A DNA stretch of 64,000 nucleotides from Methanoplanus sp. FWC-SCC4 (GTDB taxonomy: Archaea; Halobacteriota; Methanomicrobia; Methanomicrobiales; Methanomicrobiaceae), in assembly GCF_032878975.1 (NCBI RefSeq), contig NZ_CP043875.1:2162370-2226369 (forward strand). The letters run 5' to 3'. The translations under genes were made by a program, and so were the position numbers. The notes beneath the pieces were generated by a model. The model ran no database searches, was not told where the DNA came from, and saw only the letters and a list, made by a program, of their open reading frames with translations. Positions 19,102 through 55,153 of this stretch are shown here, piece after piece (position 1 is the stretch's first letter; every line of letters starts with the position of its first letter).

Positions 19102-19485
19102 TTATATTCCGTTCAGCTTCCCGGCAGCGTACTCAAGCATTTCGATAAGCTCCGACTCCCTTATAGGCTTTACAAGATACCCAAGTGGATCTGTCTTAAG
19201 GGCTCTCTCCCTCATACTCATATCAGAATATGCTGTTATGTAAATGACACGGAGACCATAATCCTCCAAAAGCCTCTCTGCCACTGAAACACCGTCCATA
19301 TCTCCCTTAATATTAATATCCATCAGAACAATGTCCGGTCTTTCTCCGGCAACATTTGAAAATACCTTATCGCCCCTGTCCAGAACTCCGGTGACCCTGC
19401 ATCCAAGCCTGTTTACCCTCTGTTCGATGTCCATTGAAATTATGGCATCGTCTTCAACAATGAGTATCTTAAGACCCTTAATCAC
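19102..19485 (-). CDS. Stand-alone receiver-domain response regulator
   Basis: A 127-residue CheY-like receiver with the acidic pocket at EDD (residues 11-13), the phospho-acceptor D56 in LMDINI, a Thr in YITAYSD and the Lys in YLVKPI. There is no output domain. Its start overlaps the stop of the upstream sensor kinase gene by 4 bp (ATGA), so it is the cognate partner of that kinase, which is currently frameshifted. It probably acts by protein interaction. Confidence 0.9.
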   Translation of the reverse strand: MIKGLKILIVEDDAIISMDIEQRVNRLGCRVTGVLDRGDKVFSNVAGERPDIVLMDINIKGDMDGVSVAERLLEDYGLRVIYITAYSDMSMRERALKTDPLGYLVKPIRESELIEMLEYAAGKLNGI

Positions 19486-20724
19486 TTTCTCACACTCCTT
19501 TCAGATTCTGAATTAAAGTTAATGATGAATTTTGCTCCGCCGTCAGATACAGCCTCAATAGTGCCTGACATCTGTCTCTCTACAAGATTTCTGACCATAC
19601 TGATCCCAAGCGAGTCCGTCTTCTCAAGATCAAAATCTTTTGGAAGGCCGATGCCGTCATCTTCAACAATAAGCTTTATTAAATTCTTAGATGTCTCCTC
19701 AACAGTTATGGAGACACTGCCGCTTCTTCCATCTGCAAAGGAGTGAGAAAAAGCGTTTGACAAAAGCTCATTTAGCAAAAGTCCGAAAGGAATCGCAGTC
19801 TCAATAGGAATAAGGACTTTGCCGGCATGTACCAAAACCGTGATATCATCAGGGACAGACATCGAGGTTCTCAGGTCACCGGCAAGACTCACGATATATT
19901 CATTTGCCGATATGTGCTGCTGATCTTCATGGTGCATATTCTCGTGAACAAGCGAAAGCGCCATAATACGCCTTTGTGCCTCTGACAAAATGTTTTTCAC
20001 CTGTTCATCCGCGACACCGGCGGACTGTATATTAATAAGGCTTGAGATCTGCTGAAGATTGTTCCTGATACGCAGGTGAATCTCATCGATCAGACGCTCT
20101 TTTTCACGAAGGGCCTTTCTGACCTCCGTTACATCCTCAAGAATAATTGTCATCCCCGGACTTCCATCGTCAAATACCGTCGGAATGAGTTTGACCAAAA
20201 AGAAGCACTCACCGCTTTCATCTTCCCATTCTATCTCTTTTGCCTCGCCTTCCCCCCTGAAAAGCTCGTTTATAGCCTTTAATACTGATACATTGGTCAC
20301 TACCGGAAGGGAGGAGTCGGGCAGACGCATGCCTGCAAGTTCCTCGCGTTCGTAACCCGTGAAAGCCAGAAAATTGTCATTTGCCTGCAAGTTCCTCGCG
20401 TTCGTAACCCGTGAAAGCCAGAAAATTGTCATTTGCCTGAACAATCCTCTGATCACCTCCGAGAACGACAATCGCATCCGAAGAGAAGTCAAGCATCGCT
20501 GATATGGGGACACGGTGCGAGAGGAAATACACCTTTGCAACCCCTATGCTCCTCATATCAACATGACCGGAAATCAGCAGCATATTCAGATATTTTGATA
20601 CTGAATTCCTGTTCATATTAAGAAGCCTGGAGATATCAGTGATACTAAGACCTCTTGGTTCGTCCTTTAGAAGTTCCATCACTCTGGACAGCTCTCTTTT
20701 GCTCTCTTCTATCTGTCTTGACAT
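19482..20724 (-). pseudogene. HTH-PAS sensor histidine kinase broken by a 52-bp tandem duplication
   Basis: The 5' part (from ATG 20724) encodes a winged-helix HTH (LSITDISRLLNMNRNSVSKY) and the start of a PAS domain, then stops at 20377-20379 after EELAGK. The remaining PAS, HisKA_2 (EIHLRIRNNLQQI) and HATPase domains (LLNELLSNAF, VEDDGIGLP) continue in another frame to 19482. The junction is an exact 52-bp direct duplication at 20331-20434. Removing one copy restores one 396-residue frame reading VQANDNFLAF into EELAGMRLPD. The cognate receiver gene overlaps its end. The break is either recent or artefactual, because no other damage is seen. Confidence 0.9.
20331..20434. repeat. Exact 52-bp tandem duplication (two copies)
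   Basis: Copy one is 20331-20382 and copy two is 20383-20434; the first five bases of the unit (GCCTG) recur after copy two. The copies are identical. As 52 is not a multiple of 3, the duplication shifts the frame of the kinase gene. Confidence 0.97.
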
Positions 20725-20892
20725 AAATTTCCCTGATTTTGTTAGTCTTTGGGATTCAAACTAATTAATTGTTACTCTTAATGATAGGCAATACTGCACC
20801 GGATGAATGTTCAATCTTACGAACCAGAGTCAATAATCTGTTTTTGCCGTCATAATTATTAAAAACAGTCCAGATGCGGTGTTAATTTAATT

Positions 20893-20913: not shown

Positions 20914-20967
20914 CCACAGTAAGTATTTTTGCCGTATAAAATCAGATCAGTAAAGAGATATTTCATT

Positions 20968-21783
20968 ATGGAGGCAATACTAGCAACAGTTTCATTCATA
21001 TGCTTTGTAATTTTTCTGTTGCCGATAAAAACTAGAAATTATTTTGCAATAATTGCATGGTCATGCCTTCTGGCTTCCGTATTTGCAAATTTTCCAAAAT
21101 ACATATATGAAAACAATATAGCGTACCCCGCATTGGCGCTGATTTCAATTCCTCTTCTTTTGATTACGGCAAGAAATATTTTAAAGGAAAATGAAACCGT
21201 TCTTGCTGTCACAAAAGGGACTGCAGTGGCATTCCTGATATTTGCTCCCTTTGCATACGTGGAACAGATTGGAAACCTGCTTATTTTTGCAAACGTCGAA
21301 GTTATAAGTTTCATCCTTGACTCAATAGGATTCACTTACACCATGTCTGCTCCGGATATGTTCCTTCACGACATATTCCAGGTTGAAATAATTCTTGCAT
21401 GCACAGGCATTCAGGCAATTGCAATAATGCTCGGACTGACCTTTGCAATACCTTCGACAACAAGGCAGAAGGCCCTCTCCATTGCAGTGGTAGTGCCGGT
21501 AATAGTTATCATGAATCTTTTCAGGAGCCTGTTTGTAATCATAACCTACACGGAACAGTGGTTTCCGTACTTCCCGGAAATTGCATCAAACGGGAATTAC
21601 GGTTATGAAAGTTTTTTCTGGGCACATAATATAATATCGGAGTTCGGGATATCGCTTATTACAATAATAATCGTCATATATACCTTAATTCTGATTAACC
21701 CGGGAATAAAGGACTTCATGGCAAAAACCCTCTCCTTATACATCGGTGAGCTTAGACAGATGGCTGGTAAAAACAATCCCTGA
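20968..21783 (+). CDS. Archaeosortase/exosortase-family transpeptidase (copy 1)
   Basis: A 271-residue polytopic membrane protein from ATG 20968; the frame extends to a TTG at 20929, which is less likely. It carries the exosortase/archaeosortase catalytic set: Cys in ACTGIQ (C145), Arg in MNLFRSLFV (R186) and His in WAHN (H220), each in or beside hydrophobic helices. These enzymes cleave C-terminal PGF-CTERM-type signals and attach the protein to a lipid. Candidate substrates in this window end at 2477 and 55712. A second copy follows 102 bp downstream. The exact subfamily (ArtA or another) cannot be settled by eye. Confidence 0.88.
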   Translation: MEAILATVSFICFVIFLLPIKTRNYFAIIAWSCLLASVFANFPKYIYENNIAYPALALISIPLLLITARNILKENETVLAVTKGTAVAFLIFAPFAYVEQIGNLLIFANVEVISFILDSIGFTYTMSAPDMFLHDIFQVEIILACTGIQAIAIMLGLTFAIPSTTRQKALSIAVVVPVIVIMNLFRSLFVIITYTEQWFPYFPEIASNGNYGYESFFWAHNIISEFGISLITIIIVIYTLILINPGIKDFMAKTLSLYIGELRQMAGKNNP

Positions 21784-21885: not shown

Positions 21886-22713
21886 ATGGCTGAAATCCTG
21901 CTGTTGCTCTCGCTCATATTGTTTGCACTCTCTGTTGCTCCAACCGGATTCCGTGGTATTTTTGCCGCTGGAGGCTGGATATTTCTTGCAGTGGTTTTCT
22001 TTTCAATGTCATTTCATTACATATTTGAAAATGAGTTTGTATATCCGGCAGCAGCGGTAATCTCGGTTCCCCTGCTTTTCATAACAGTTAAGGGATGCCT
22101 TAAAAATGACAGAACCGCCCTTAACATAAGTTCTGTTGCCGCAATTGCATTTTTGATATATGCTGCAGTAGCATTATGGGAACCGCTTGCAACCTGGCTT
22201 ATTGAAACACAGGTTGAAAACACCGTCTCTGCGCTGCTTGCAATAGGACATCCGGCATCTGTTTCACAGTGGGATACGATACTTAGCAACGGCTACATAG
22301 TCGTGATAACCCTCTCCTGCACGCCGGTTGTAGGCACCGCAATTATGCTTGGTGTTGCAATGGGCGTTGAAAGCTCCAAATTTCAGAAAATTATTGCATG
22401 TGTCTTTACCATAGCGACTCTTGCGGTACTCAACCTCTCCCGTCTTGTTTTTGTCGTTGTAGCATACTCGGAACAGTGGTTTCCTTACTTCCTTGACATT
22501 GCATCAAACGGATATCCGGGTTTTGAGAGCTTCTACTGGGCGCACAACGTAATCGGGAGAATCATATTCACAATACTTGGAATTGTAATCACAGGAGGGG
22601 GACTTGCGATTGTTGTTCCTGATGTCAGAAAGTTTTACAGTGATATTATTACTTTTTACTACTCAGGTGCAGTTGAAATAAAATCAACCTTTTTTAGAAA
22701 ACTTAAATTATGA
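21886..22713 (+). CDS. Archaeosortase/exosortase-family transpeptidase (copy 2)
   Basis: This 275-residue polytopic membrane protein is paralogous to its upstream neighbour. It has Cys in SCTPVVGT (C145), Arg in LNLSRLVFV (R186) and His in WAHN (H220), the same residue numbers as copy 1. Shared segments include EQWFPYF, DIASNGY and ESF(Y/F)WAHN. The Cys context differs (SCTPV versus ACTGI), suggesting a different sorting-signal specificity. It is a tandem duplicate with divergence, with its own AT-rich upstream sequence. Confidence 0.88.
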   Translation: MAEILLLLSLILFALSVAPTGFRGIFAAGGWIFLAVVFFSMSFHYIFENEFVYPAAAVISVPLLFITVKGCLKNDRTALNISSVAAIAFLIYAAVALWEPLATWLIETQVENTVSALLAIGHPASVSQWDTILSNGYIVVITLSCTPVVGTAIMLGVAMGVESSKFQKIIACVFTIATLAVLNLSRLVFVVVAYSEQWFPYFLDIASNGYPGFESFYWAHNVIGRIIFTILGIVITGGGLAIVVPDVRKFYSDIITFYYSGAVEIKSTFFRKLKL

Positions 22714-22791: not shown

Positions 22792-24987
22792 ATGGATAAA
22801 AATCAGGATAATCATAAAAACCAATTTTCATACAAAAACTATCTTTTTATCGTAATTTTCCTGATTTCTCTAATAATAATCATATCATCTGTTTTTTACG
22901 GCTTTATCTCGGCAAGCGATCTTGTGATCGCCCAGGCAGAGGAAAGTCAGAATGAGTTAACATCCAAAATAAGCGATGACATCGGGATTATCAACAAAGG
23001 ACTTGAGATATACGATACCTCCCTGAACAACAGACTTGAAAGATGCTTTATCCCATTCCTTGAGGAATACGAAAAAAGCGGAAGAGATCCTGCCAAAATG
23101 GATCTTGAATCTGTAAAATCGGCAACGGGAGAGGATGTGACATTATATATAATCAATTCAAGTTATGTGATCGAAGAGTCAACAAATCCGACAAGCATAG
23201 GACTTGACTTCAAAAAATTTGCTGCCTATTATATTGATTATCTTGAAAAGATACGGTTTTCAAATGATTTTTTCGCTGAAAGGGCACTTACTGAAATTGA
23301 AACCGGGATGGTAAAAAAATTTGGATACTTGGGGACTCCGGATAACAGATACATCCTTGAAATCAGCCTTTTTGACGAGGAATTCGACAAACTCAGGAAA
23401 GAACTGAAATATTCAGATCATATCGAAAGAGTGACGGAAAAAAATCCGTATGTCACTGATATTAAAATATATAACAGTATATTCCACGAGGTAGGGAACA
23501 AAAATTTTAAGGCAGATAGCCGGTTTGAAGCTTTTCTCAGTTCAATATTTGAAAAAGAAACATCTGTCGATATAACAGATGAAAAAACCGGAAAATTAAC
23601 CAGATATCTATATATACCCCTTAAAAGTGAAGATTATGGTTCAGACAACAGTCTTGTGGTGAAGCTTGACCTGACCACCGGCCCTATGAGCGAGATGCTC
23701 TCCGACATCTTCCTTCAATATGTCGGAATAGGAATTTTTGCAGTAATGATATGTTTTGGCTCGGCTTTTCTGATATCACAGCATTTTGGAGACGAGGTAA
23801 AAGACATAGTAAAGGACATAGAGAAGATATCAAAAGGGGATCTGGATCATAAAATTAAAAATACACCAAACAGGGAGTTCAAAAATCTTGAAGAAAGCAT
23901 AAACGATATGGTTGCAAATCTGAGGAAAAACATAGATGAGGTAAATGAAAGCCGTAAAATTGTCACAATGGAAAGGGACAGGGCCAGGAAATATTTCGAT
24001 TTTGCATCCGTTATATTCATAGCAGTGACTAAAAAAGGAGATATAATAAAATTTAATCACAGGGCAGAGGAGGCTCTTGGCTATTCAAACTCTGAATCAG
24101 CCGGTTACAACTTTTACGATCTTATTCTGACAGAAAATAACAGGAATTTTGTGAGAGCACTTCTTTTATTTGACATTGATTCGGACAGGGATGAACCCCG
24201 TTATTTCCAGTGCAAAGTAAAGACAAAAACTGGAACAATAAGGGATATAAATTTCAGTTCAGTTATCCTGAGAGATGAAAACTCGGATATATCCGGCTTT
24301 TTGATAACAGGGGAGGACATAACAAATGAACTTAAGTCCAAAAAAGATCTCCAGTCCTCACTTCATGAGAAAAACGCTCTTTTAAAGGAAGTGCATCACA
24401 GGGTAAAAAATAATCTTCAGGTAATAAACAGCCTTTTGGAACTTCAGTCAGGCAATATATCAGATGAATATATCCTAAGCCTCTTTAGAGAGTCCGAATC
24501 AAGGGTCAACTCAATGGCCCTTGTACATGAAATAATGTATGACTCAGGAAACTTCTCAAGGATAAATATCGCGGATTATACACGTTCACTTGTACTTGAG
24601 ACACTGTCAGGCAAGAAAGGTTTTCTCAGGATCAATGTGGATTTCATTCTTGACGATATTTTCTTTGATCTTGATCATGCAGTCCCATATGGTCTTTTGA
24701 TCAACGAAATGACCTCAAACGCAGTAAAACATGCATTTAAAGGTAAATCCGAAGGCAATATTACTGTAAAACTCCGGAAAAAAGATAACGGGAATATAAT
24801 ACTTGAATTCAGAGATAACGGAACAGGAATACCTGATGAAGAGACATTATATGCGTCAAAGGGTATTGGCTTAAGCCTGATAAAAGGACTTACAAGGCAG
24901 CTGAAAGGTGAAATTTCAATCGAAAGAGAATCCGGAACTAAATACACAATCGAGATGGAAAAGCCTGAAGAGCAGATTCGGTTCTAA
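22792..24987 (+). CDS. Membrane sensor histidine kinase (sensor-HAMP-PAS-HisKA_2)
   Basis: A 731-residue kinase with a transmembrane helix at about 17-40, an extracellular region of about 270 residues (probably Cache-like) and a second helix near 310-333. A HAMP segment (IEKISKGDLDHKIKN), a PAS domain (about 400-515, ending TGEDITNE), the HisKA_2 phospho-acceptor region EVHHRVKNNLQVINSLLELQ and a HATPase (NEMTSNAVKHAF, FRDNGTGIP, KGIGLSLIKGL) follow. It senses an extracellular signal and phosphorylates a receiver. No response regulator is adjacent on this strand. It follows the archaeosortases by 78 bp, perhaps in a separate unit. Confidence 0.93.
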   Translation: MDKNQDNHKNQFSYKNYLFIVIFLISLIIIISSVFYGFISASDLVIAQAEESQNELTSKISDDIGIINKGLEIYDTSLNNRLERCFIPFLEEYEKSGRDPAKMDLESVKSATGEDVTLYIINSSYVIEESTNPTSIGLDFKKFAAYYIDYLEKIRFSNDFFAERALTEIETGMVKKFGYLGTPDNRYILEISLFDEEFDKLRKELKYSDHIERVTEKNPYVTDIKIYNSIFHEVGNKNFKADSRFEAFLSSIFEKETSVDITDEKTGKLTRYLYIPLKSEDYGSDNSLVVKLDLTTGPMSEMLSDIFLQYVGIGIFAVMICFGSAFLISQHFGDEVKDIVKDIEKISKGDLDHKIKNTPNREFKNLEESINDMVANLRKNIDEVNESRKIVTMERDRARKYFDFASVIFIAVTKKGDIIKFNHRAEEALGYSNSESAGYNFYDLILTENNRNFVRALLLFDIDSDRDEPRYFQCKVKTKTGTIRDINFSSVILRDENSDISGFLITGEDITNELKSKKDLQSSLHEKNALLKEVHHRVKNNLQVINSLLELQSGNISDEYILSLFRESESRVNSMALVHEIMYDSGNFSRINIADYTRSLVLETLSGKKGFLRINVDFILDDIFFDLDHAVPYGLLINEMTSNAVKHAFKGKSEGNITVKLRKKDNGNIILEFRDNGTGIPDEETLYASKGIGLSLIKGLTRQLKGEISIERESGTKYTIEMEKPEEQIRF

Positions 24988-30374: not shown

Positions 30375-31694
30375 TTACCTGAACAATGTTCTAAATCTTG
30401 TGATGTCAATCTGCTTCAGGCGGTTTTCATCAAAGCGCTCATCTTTTGCAAGTGTTCTTTTAATGCCGGCAACTCCTGTTCCAAACCACATCTCCTTTGT
30501 CCTTCCATATCTTCCTCTGGAAACAACACGGGAATTTATAACACCAAGCATGGTGAGTTCTGATATCAGATCTGTAATTCTTCTGTGGGTCAGGATGTCA
30601 AGTTCAAGCGCCTGGGCAACATCGCGGTAAACCTGTGCGACTTCTCCGGTTGTAAAGACCTGCTTGTTTAGTTCGGATAAAATAAGCATTGAATACAATA
30701 CGGCCTTGCTTTGTGTCGGAAGTGAGGAAACACAGACTATGAGACTGTCGGTTTCAATCTTTTGCTGGGCCATTTTCACATGCTTTTCAGAGACTCTTGC
30801 TCCGTCTTCACGTTCTGCGAGTTCCCCGGAAATCCTGAGAAGATCAAGAGCTCTTCTTGCATCACCGTGTTCCTGTGCTGCAAGAGCAGCGCATAAAGGT
30901 ATGACTCCTTCATCGAGAATATTGTCAGCGAAGGCAACATCGGCACGCTGCTGGAGAATGTCACGAAGCTGCGGTGCATTATATGGTGGAAAAACAAGTT
31001 CTTCTTCAGATAATGATGAGAGAACCCTTGGATCAAGGAAATTTGTAAAGCGGAGATCGTTTGATATTCCTATCATGCTGATTTTTGCATTCTTAAGTTC
31101 TGAATTGAATCTTGTCAGATTATAGAGGGTTTCATCACCGCTTTTCTTGACAAGTTTGTCAATCTCGTCAAGTACAATTACATTTACACCGCCTATTGTC
31201 TCGACCATGCTTTTTAATTCGGAATAAACCTGGTCCGTAGGCCATCCGGTCATCGGAATGCTTGATCTCGGTTTGTCACTTGATTTGCTTTCCAAATCCT
31301 CAAGTTCATTTGCAATTTGTGCAAGAACACGATACTGCGTGTCAATTAATTCACAGTTTAAGTGAATTACATTGCATGCCTTCCCCATTTCACGGCACGC
31401 GTTTTCAAGCTCTGCCCCCACATATTTCACAGACGCGGTTTTTCCTGTTCCTGTTTTTCCATATATAAGGATGTTTGAAGGTGTTTCATTTCTGATCGCA
31501 GGTGCGAGTATTGCTGCAATGGAATCTATCTGCGGTCGTCTGTGCGGAAGTATGTGCGGTCTGTAAGAATGCCTTAAAACTTCCCTGTTTTTAAAAATAC
31601 CCCTGTTATTAAGATATTTTGTGAATAAACCTGCTGAGGAACCGCCTCCCCCGGCAGATAAACCGGTATTTTCGTCAATTTTTTCTTCCGACAA
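30375..31694 (-). CDS. cdc6: Orc1/Cdc6 replication initiator
   Basis: A 439-residue AAA+ origin-binding protein. Walker A GKTGTGKT is at residues 79-86 and Walker B VIVLDEIDKL near 175. Sensor 1 lies in IGISNDLRF, sensor 2 in HGDARRALDLLR, and a C-terminal winged helix (SLPTQSKAVLYSMLILSELN onward) reads the origin DNA. Archaeal orc1/cdc6 genes commonly lie beside the origin they serve. Here six ORB-like boxes lie on both sides, and the gene starts at the edge of the 2.4-kb AT-rich stretch. The N-terminal 30 residues are Gly/Ser-rich and probably flexible. Confidence 0.97.
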   Translation of the reverse strand: MSEEKIDENTGLSAGGGGSSAGLFTKYLNNRGIFKNREVLRHSYRPHILPHRRPQIDSIAAILAPAIRNETPSNILIYGKTGTGKTASVKYVGAELENACREMGKACNVIHLNCELIDTQYRVLAQIANELEDLESKSSDKPRSSIPMTGWPTDQVYSELKSMVETIGGVNVIVLDEIDKLVKKSGDETLYNLTRFNSELKNAKISMIGISNDLRFTNFLDPRVLSSLSEEELVFPPYNAPQLRDILQQRADVAFADNILDEGVIPLCAALAAQEHGDARRALDLLRISGELAEREDGARVSEKHVKMAQQKIETDSLIVCVSSLPTQSKAVLYSMLILSELNKQVFTTGEVAQVYRDVAQALELDILTHRRITDLISELTMLGVINSRVVSRGRYGRTKEMWFGTGVAGIKRTLAKDERFDENRLKQIDITRFRTLFR

Positions 31695-31882
31695 TTTTGA
31701 GCCTCCGAAATTATTTCAGAAAGTTTCCTAAACAAAATCATTTTTTTTGTAAGGATTCTCTGAAAATTAAGCAAAAAATTTGAATTTTTAGCTTTGAACA
31801 TAAAAAATCCGGAGTGTCAATACCCCACTTTCAACTCCAGACTTTTTCGTAACTATAGTCTAATGATTTAATTCCTTATTAA

Positions 31883-31903
31883 CCCCTATGTTTCCACTGG
31901 AAA
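31883..31903 (-). other. Origin recognition box-like element 3
   Basis: On the minus strand TTTCCAGTGGAAA, spacer CATA, GGGG, then T. It lies 189 bp upstream of the orc1/cdc6 start. Confidence 0.8.
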
Positions 31904-32070
31904 AATCAAAAAAATATTTTGACCAAGCATAAAGAGAAAATCATTTTTAAACATCTATTTTTGATTTGAATAATTCTGCTTCATTTTTCAAAAAATAAAA
32001 GATTAAATCTCCAAAATTTTCAGAGCCGGATTTTAAAAAATTTCTGCAAAAAATTTTTCACTAAATTTTC

Positions 32071-32224
32071 CTGATTATTTATCTGTTTTTTACCTGATTT
32101 TTTCATCTGATAATTTATTTCTTCTTCATCCGGATTTTCATCTGATTATTTATCTGTTTTTTACCTGATTTTTTCATCTGATAATTTATTTCTTCTTCAT
32201 CCGGATTTTCATCTGATTATTTAT
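32071..32224. repeat. 71-bp tandem repeat inside the origin region
   Basis: Two copies (32071-32141 and 32142-32212) plus about 12 bases of a third. The unit is pyrimidine-rich, with repeated CTGAT and TTCATC words. Confidence 0.92.
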
Positions 32225-33216
32225 TTGGTTTTCTCAGAGAAAGGTGAAAAACAAAATTTAATTTCAGCGGGCATCAGATTTGTTTTTCTGCTGAAATTTT
32301 AACATTATAGTAAAGAATGAAAAAACCTTGAGACCTTGAAAAAATTTTCATGATTTTGAAGATCCAAAAAAAATTTTTGAAATTTATTATTGATCTTATC
32401 AAAATCTTAAACCTCAAAATTAATTTTAACCAAAGTCTGCCACTTCAGTCAAATTCAATTATAATATGAAGGAATTGAATTTGACAGTTCCAGGAATTAT
32501 TTTGGAAATTGTCTTTGGAATTGTTTTGAAAATTGGTTTGGGATTGGATCTGGGAATTTTTAAAAAATATCACAAAAAATCTCTTTTTTTTGAGATTATA
32601 TTTTTGATAACCTGAGATTTAAACAATAAAACTTATATTTTGCCTACAAATATAGCCCGGCTGTCAAAGTCAATAATGACCACTTTGGATATTTTTTAAA
32701 CATAAAATATTTCTAAAGAAAAATTGACAAACATCAAATTAAAAAAAAATTTTTGAAAAATTAAAAAAATGACATTCAAAATTAATTTTCAAAATGAGGT
32801 GCCGCATTCTAAAAATTCCTTAATTTTTTGTTTTTTGGCAGTTTTCATCTGACAATTTCAATCAGATTTTGTAAAATTTGAATTTTTTTTAAAATTTTTT
32901 TAACAAATTTGGATTTTTGCGCAAAAAACATGAGGAAAATATGGTGAAAATTTGCTGAAATTTCTAAATTTTTTTATGATCTTCTTCTATTGAGGATGAT
33001 TTTTATCTTCTACAGGAAGTGAGATTTCGATAATATGCCTTAATTCTTAGATCATGATTCTTGTTTTACACAAAAAATGAACAAGGAAATTTTTTGAAAT
33101 AGAATGAGTAATTGGGAATTAATTTATCATTAAGCTTGATTATGAGATTAAATTCCTGAAAATTTTTATTGAATTTTCCTGAATTTTTTTAATATTTGTT
33201 GAAGAAAACTCCCCCA

Positions 33217-33237
33217 CCCCTTTATTTCCATTGGAAA
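33217..33237 (-). other. Origin recognition box-like element 4
   Basis: On the minus strand TTTCCAATGGAAA, spacer TAAA, GGGG, then T. The central base differs from the other copies, and the two dyad arms stay intact. Confidence 0.78.
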
Positions 33238-33748
33238 TTTTTTTTATCAGGCACGATTTTTTGAAAACTGGAGAATACCTTGGATAATGTAAGTTATTCA
33301 AAAGAGAATAGTCATTTGTAAATTTGTTTTTCTTATTATTTAAAGTACCTTAAATTTAACAAAAAAGTAAGAAATTAAAAAAATGAAAATGAAAAATGAA
33401 AAAAAAGTTAATGAAATGATGAGAAGCAAAAAAATTGAAATTGAAATTACAATGAAATTTGAAAAATGAATTGTAAATTTTGAAGATTAAGTTAAAAATT
33501 TAAGAAATTAATTGAAAATTTTTGGAAATCAGTTAAAAAATTGAAGACTTAATTAAAATTTTCAAGAAAATCAGAAAAAAATTACAAAAAATTACAAAAA
33601 TCCATGTATTTTCATAAGAAAAGAAACTCAAAAGCAGTAAAAATTTTTTTTGTTTTTTCCGCATTTTACGTTTTTTCAAAATTCAAACTAAAATTTTGTA
33701 TTTTTGCGTATTTTCTAACAATTTTTTTGAGCTGAGGTTTTTAAAATT

Positions 33749-33769
33749 CTTCCACTGGAAATTAAGGGG
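33749..33769 (+). other. Origin recognition box-like element 5
   Basis: CTTCCACTGGAAA, spacer TTAA, GGGG, then T. It diverges from element 4, 511 bp away, and is followed by GGGGTCATT as element 2 is by GGGTCATT. Confidence 0.8.
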
Positions 33770-34134
33770 TTGGGGTCATTATATTTTTTTTACCTATTTT
33801 AGACCCAATTCAATCTTTTTTTGATCAATTATTTTTTTTTATCAGGTTTATGACGTTTTTTCCTTTCATCTGTAACCCTAAAATTTTGTCCGGATATTTC
33901 AATTTTTTAAAATTTTTTTATTACCTGTCACAATTTTTTTTGATTTTTACAATTTTTAATGTAACTGTCATAAAAAAATTTTTATTTTTTGCACTTTTCA
34001 ATTTTGACCTTGGGTTTAGAATTCCCCTCACAAAAATTTTAATTTATCACTTTTTAATTTAGATCCGGTTTTAGTATCCCTCTCAAAATTTTTTTGTTCT
34101 GTTTTTTTGTTTTTTGTATTCGGAGTATTATTTC

Positions 34135-53467: not shown

Positions 53468-55153
53468 TCAGTTCAGCTCTGCTGCCGATGAAACCATTGC
53501 GATTATTCCGCCGTCCTGGTTTTTGAGGTATGTATTGTGCCATACGACTTCTATCTCCTCTCCCTGTTTTGTAAGAACAAAACCCTTTTCGCCGGATTTT
53601 GGAACACAGCCCCCGGATATTGCGGATTCAAATTTCTTTTTCAGATCAAAGCCTCTTTCTTTTGGTACAACTGTTGAAAACCAGTCCGAACCGACAATAT
53701 CCTCCTCATTATAGCCGAGGAATTCACAGCCCTTTTTGTTCAGACTTTTAATTTTTCCATCGCAACCGACAACTGCAATCATTACACCCGCGACATCCAG
53801 ATAGCTCTGTGCCTGATCACGCTGGCTTAGTATTTCGGCTTCAGCAGTCTTCTGTTCGGAAATATCTTCCCCGATAGTCATAATATACTCCAGTTTTCTG
53901 TCACGGCCGAATATCGGGACTTTCCTGAACATTATGATTCTTTCACTGTTATTTGCGGATTTTATTGAGATTTCCGGTAATAATACAGGGCTCCCGGCTG
54001 CTATCGCATCCCTGTCCCCTGAAATAAGATATTCCGTAATTCTGTCCGGGAATAATTCACAGCCCATTTTTCCGACAGAATCATCTCTGGAGATTCCAAA
54101 AAAGTCCTCGGCACTTTTATTGAAAAATATGTATGTACCATGGGTAACTTCCTTGACAAGTACCATTGCAGGTATGTTCTGGACAATGGAGCCCAGAAAT
54201 GATTTCCATTTAAAAAGGGCAGTTACTGCATTTTCCCTCTCTGATATATCACGGCTTACGATTCTGTAACCGGTAAGGTATCCGAGTTCATCAAACCTCG
54301 GGCATATGCTGGATTCGGTTTTTATAGACTTTCCCTCTGAATTTTTAAAAAGACATTCTATTAGCTGGGATTTTTTTGTATCTTTTGCATTTTTGATTGC
54401 AGTTTCAAACTGTGCTGCACAACTGCTTTCAAGGTAATCCATGAGCGGAAATCCTATGATTTCGCCTGTATCAGATCCTAATATATCCCTGGTACGGGGA
54501 CTTGCATAAATGAACCGGCCTTCCTCATCGATATTCCAGATGGCATCGTTTATCTCTTCCACAAGTGCCCTGAAGTTTTGCTCGCTTTCCCTGAGTGCCT
54601 CTTCCGCCTCTCTTTTTTCCGTTATGTCCTCAAGCATTATTGTAACTCCGGGGGTGGAGTCATTGAGGACTGTCGGGATTATTCGGGTTTTATAAAAAAA
54701 TTCCCTGTCTATCTTTACTATTCTGATCTCATCAACTGTTTCCTCACCTTCAAGGGCGGCTTTTAGTCTCTCGTTGATCAGGGGATGATCAAGTCCCACG
54801 AGAGGTGAATTTCTGATCTCCTTTCCAACAATATTTTCATCATTTATATCAAGAAGGGAGCAGAGGGAGTCGTTAACCTGAACGATACGTAAATCGCTGT
54901 CTATTACAACGACCATATCTGAAGAAAAGTTGATCATCGCGGAGACCGGGGCTCTTTGTGATATAAAAAAAACCTTGGCCTTTCCATAGGCTTTCATGTC
55001 GACCTGACCTGATATTCTCAGCATGTCAAGATATCTTGAGACAGTATTCCTGTTAACAGAAACCAGGTTTGCGATGTCTGTTACTGACATTCCGCGGGGG
55101 TTGCCCTTTAGAATATCAAGGATTTTTGAGAGTTCATCAGCGTAGACGTTCAT
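53468..55153 (-). CDS. HTH-PAS multi-sensor regulator lacking a kinase domain
   Basis: A 561-residue protein with an N-terminal winged helix (MSVTDIANLVSVNRNTVSRY) and four PAS domains (about 75-200, 205-325, 330-445 and 455-555), ending directly after the last one (GGIIAMVSSAAELN). It shares the HTH and first PAS, including APVSAMINFSSDMVVVIDSD, with the broken kinase at 19482. That kinase has PVSAMLDFSSDAIVVL at the same point. Unlike the kinase, no HisKA or HATPase region is present here. It may act as a one-component DNA-binding sensor or be a remnant of a former kinase. The stop lies 144 bp from the IS element. Confidence 0.85.
   Translation of the reverse strand: MNVYADELSKILDILKGNPRGMSVTDIANLVSVNRNTVSRYLDMLRISGQVDMKAYGKAKVFFISQRAPVSAMINFSSDMVVVIDSDLRIVQVNDSLCSLLDINDENIVGKEIRNSPLVGLDHPLINERLKAALEGEETVDEIRIVKIDREFFYKTRIIPTVLNDSTPGVTIMLEDITEKREAEEALRESEQNFRALVEEINDAIWNIDEEGRFIYASPRTRDILGSDTGEIIGFPLMDYLESSCAAQFETAIKNAKDTKKSQLIECLFKNSEGKSIKTESSICPRFDELGYLTGYRIVSRDISERENAVTALFKWKSFLGSIVQNIPAMVLVKEVTHGTYIFFNKSAEDFFGISRDDSVGKMGCELFPDRITEYLISGDRDAIAAGSPVLLPEISIKSANNSERIIMFRKVPIFGRDRKLEYIMTIGEDISEQKTAEAEILSQRDQAQSYLDVAGVMIAVVGCDGKIKSLNKKGCEFLGYNEEDIVGSDWFSTVVPKERGFDLKKKFESAISGGCVPKSGEKGFVLTKQGEEIEVVWHNTYLKNQDGGIIAMVSSAAELN

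Follow-up and report, generated by a model that had tools for sequence, protein, structure and literature searches.

The window analysed here is a stretch of 64,000 nucleotides from the complete 2.31 Mb genome of a methanogen of the family Methanomicrobiaceae. It contains a sensor kinase gene on the minus strand (20724 to 19482), whose domains follow the order HTH, PAS, HisKA_2 and HATPase_c. The gene stands between a receiver-only response regulator and a divergent archaeosortase A gene (Table 1). The GTG start of the receiver gene, at 19485, lies inside the kinase stop, and the two genes share a GTGA overlap; the initial annotation had already noticed that they overlap. Histidine kinases with receiver-only regulators are a common archaeal arrangement according to a census of these systems (PMC5847659). 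The present pair resembles them in that a PAS-HisKA_2-HATPase_c kinase adjoins a REC-only regulator, but differs in that the kinase has a strongly conserved HTH at its N-terminus and is split by a duplication.

Table 1. Features of the kinase locus, with positions in the window
Feature	Position	Strand	Basis
Receiver-only response regulator, conserved beside the kinase	19102..19485	-	PF00072, E 5.6e-22
Downstream open frame: rest of PAS, HisKA_2, HATPase_c	19482..20432	-	ORFs, domain search
52-bp unit, copy nearer the gene 3' end (second in gene orientation)	20330..20381	-	repeat search, TRF
52-bp unit, copy nearer the gene 5' end (first in gene orientation)	20382..20433	-	repeat search, TRF
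6-bp microhomology CAGGCA (TGCCTG on +) bounding the unit	20434..20439; also 20382-20387, 20330-20335	-	58-nt run, sequence
Upstream open frame: HTH_IclR and first part of PAS, 115 aa; TGA stop inside the second copy	20377..20724	-	ORFs, domain search
Conserved element TATTGCCTATCA; an A+T-rich, TATA-like part of the kinase promoter follows closely downstream	20782..20793	-	orthologue upstream regions
Archaeosortase A, divergent neighbour	20929..21783	+	TIGR04125, 209 bits against a 75-bit cut-off

The duplication and the reading frame of the kinase gene

Repeat search and TRF detected two adjacent copies of a 52-nt unit in the kinase gene, head to tail and 100% identical over 52 nt, which confirmed the duplication described by the initial annotation. 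Shifted by 52 nt, the sequence matches itself over a run of 58 nt (20330 to 20439), so the register of the repeat is free over 6 nt. The earlier coordinates, 20331-20434, mark the same repeat but in a register one base later than 20330-20433. Chance is ruled out for an exact self-match of 58 nt.

The length of the unit is not divisible by 3, and the extra copy shifts the reading frame. No single uninterrupted frame encodes the HTH-PAS-HisKA_2 kinase here, and the break falls at the duplication. The open frames and the domain positions place it inside the PAS domain, where it had been reported. The downstream part belongs to the frame of ORF 19482..20540, which is open as far as the normal stop. 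The Pfam domains were found in the expected order across both frames, and likewise in the intact orthologue P0004. With one unit subtracted, the 1243 nt span is reduced to 1191 nt (3 × 397), that is 396 codons and a stop, exactly the clean 396-residue frame that had been predicted. Alignment of the downstream part continues to its end with no extra stop or frame break, consistent with the earlier remark that no other damage is visible. The locus is therefore a disrupted copy of the family's kinase gene and not an intact member, and its annotation should read frameshifted kinase.

The word "inactivates", used of the duplication in the initial annotation, is slightly too strong. The kinase core is an open frame with possible internal starts, one ATG at 20432 and another at 20330 that is preceded by GAGG at a distance of 11 nt. 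Translation could therefore still yield a truncated kinase. Bypass of the stop by a +1 frameshift at AAA-TGA-C was also considered and rejected, since the site occurs in no relative and has no supporting conservation.

Orthologues and the age of the lesion

The family comparison set comprised 28 genomes of nine genera, among which the genome studied was the sole member of its genus. By script, 14 orthologues in five other genera were single open frames, and the search gave two further full-length matches without internal stops (G002 and G023). No exact tandem repeat of at least 15 bp was found in the fetched orthologue loci. Every full-length orthologue has one unit, and as judged from these sequences one unit is the ancestral state. 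The stop reported in the G001 orthologue is the normal end of its frame. A different frameshift, near residue 171, was seen in G027, a 59%-complete genome (L041/L051), and is probably a sequencing or consensus error. The contig search also gave one MAG locus, whose contig is apparently that of G019.

Conservation within the kinase is highest over the first 114 residues, with 73-92% identity versus 37-62% for the rest, and all orthologues keep this part joined to the kinase. This conservation bears on whether the split itself is functional, with both an HTH/half-PAS peptide and an internally started kinase core at work and the kinase uncoupled from its sensor. The intact core and its in-frame ATGs would allow such an arrangement, but it would cut the PAS domain in either product and separate the most conserved part from the kinase to which it is always joined. 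We regard a functional split as very unlikely.

The downstream part shares 58.7% amino-acid identity with its counterpart in one related genus (g6), and a second genus (g8) shares 53-58% with g6. Relative-rate counts were balanced with three outgroups (e.g. 28:31 and 25:23); no rate increase was observed, and the rate tests do not point to relaxed constraint. Third-position bias was clear. Synonymous sites are near saturation, and dN/dS was for this reason not read beyond that bias. The identity of the copies bounds the age of the duplication loosely, to about 3% neutral divergence at most (our own estimate by the rule of three over 104 sites). Identical copies, no further damage and a divergence typical of relatives suggest that the lesion is recent relative to the separation of the genera, and finer dating is not possible. 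Together with the balanced rate tests, they support the recent event proposed by the initial annotation.

Origin of the duplication

The CAGGCA hexamer that bounds the unit extends the homology 6 bp beyond the period. At this base composition, a random join would show 6 nt or more of homology with a probability of about 0.0017. The hexamer thus speaks for slippage or template switching between short repeats rather than for a random join, of which an assembly error would be one example. The duplication is probably a recent loss-of-function mutation, private to the lineage or culture, that arose by slippage and could in principle revert. During replication or repair, a strand would have slipped from one CAGGCA hexamer to another at a distance of 52 bp, and the interval between them would then have been copied twice. 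The resulting frameshift would leave two pieces of the kinase, a peptide with the HTH and half of the PAS domain and a kinase core in another frame. The HTH-PAS module would thereby lose control of the kinase, and the receiver partner would probably lose its phosphodonor. The same slippage could remove the second unit again. We infer the loss of function, the slippage and the revertibility alike, and the reversibility claimed earlier is upheld in principle, through the loss of one unit. If function is lost in this way, laboratory work on the strain may involve a signalling mutant.

The mechanism has a precedent. In fission yeast ssp1, reversible microhomology-mediated duplications create premature stops, as stated where the review PMC13207564 cites Dan et al. 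2021; few other papers on revertible short duplications were found. In both cases, as far as that statement goes, a short duplication in a coding gene has a few homologous bases at its boundaries, causes a premature stop and is revertible in principle. The cases differ in that the yeast duplications are described there as reversible, whereas the present one, in another domain of life, is known from a genome that is a single consensus sequence.

The main rival is an assembly or consensus artefact, in which overlapping contig ends were joined unmerged while the chromosome has one unit and an intact gene. The intact orthologues, the lack of relaxed constraint and the perfect frame with one unit would all be expected from it. 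A join error, however, does not predict the microhomology at the boundaries. Assemblers usually collapse short exact repeats rather than expand them, which also stands against an artefact. To assess the background of such duplications, we sampled 464 kb, made up of the window and 20 further stretches (400 kb) of this genome. The kinase duplication was the only exact tandem duplication of at least 15 bp in non-repetitive coding DNA. The others in the sample were a 71-bp unit in a region lacking long genes, a 48-bp unit in sequence rich in repeats and a simple repeat of 22 bp. No excess of such duplications, as a signal of assembly quality, was found in the sampled 400 kb and the window. The artefact, which the initial annotation had rightly listed as possible, is disfavoured by these results, and we consider it unlikely.

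A private, ordinary slippage mutation must also be weighed against a maintained on/off switch, in which the number of units toggles at a high rate and selection preserves the toggling. Two exact copies with short homology could in principle be lost by slippage, and the ssp1 duplications, as cited, are a known case of reversible premature stops. However, the CAGGCA pair was absent from every orthologue examined, and none of them carries a duplication. The second hexamer was found in none, while the first was kept in one orthologue and five of its bases in two others. Microhomology pairs of 6 bp or more, spaced 20-150 bp apart, number about 58 in each kb of the window. The CAGGCA pair is thus not special, and neither is the architecture of the kinase gene. 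A repeat of two 52-bp units is no hypermutable array either, and no repeat-prone architecture is kept in relatives, as would be expected of a phase-variable gene. In M. tuberculosis, VNTRs and a 57-bp duplication at dop exemplify phase variation by tandem-repeat copy number (PMC12817950). The present case is similar in that unit number alters expression or frame, but it has two units only, is not conserved in relatives and is known from one genome. A weaker proposal is that microhomology duplication gives the sensor kinase a reversible, spontaneous off-state, with one-unit and two-unit cells mixed in cultures. We consider this extremely unlikely, and a switch kept by selection even less probable; the on/off role suggested by the initial annotation is not supported. 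The duplication is an ordinary frameshifting mutation. Measurable reversion would make it a simple archaeal case of a microhomology duplication that can revert; failing that, it is a single ordinary mutation.

Neighbouring genes, upstream element and HTH family

Of more lasting interest is the intact family, in which a highly conserved HTH-PAS kinase and its receiver are found beside archaeosortase A. The order of receiver, kinase and divergent archaeosortase A is kept in several genera. In the window, two tandem archaeosortase A paralogues (20929-21783 and 21886-22713) diverge from the kinase. This pair, with a HAMP-PAS-HisKA_2 kinase (22792-24987), also occurs in genus g8 (L022, Methanomicrobiaceae).

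The upstream element, TATTGC(A/C)TATCA, was found upstream of the kinase in most genera examined (L023-L035). At one mismatch it had 38 matches genome-wide versus 12 for the reversed control (about 3-fold), and its second exact genomic copy lies in a stretch without convincing genes. From its conservation and position, the element is a possible operator. Scans for bacterial promoters and terminators gave nothing above shuffles.

The HTH region is common to eight other loci in the genome. These belong to a multi-copy family with a strongly conserved N-terminal HTH and very different open-frame lengths, including 53468-55153 on the minus strand; in this member, which was read, PAS domains are joined to the HTH. 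The conservation of the HTH, the eight loci sharing it and the upstream element make a DNA-binding role of the HTH part of the kinase plausible.

Elsewhere in the window, a Cdc6/Orc1-like gene (30375-31694, identified by eye) adjoins some 2 kb of A+T-rich tandem repeats (approximately 31800-33850) without long genes. Together they are likely to represent a replication origin.
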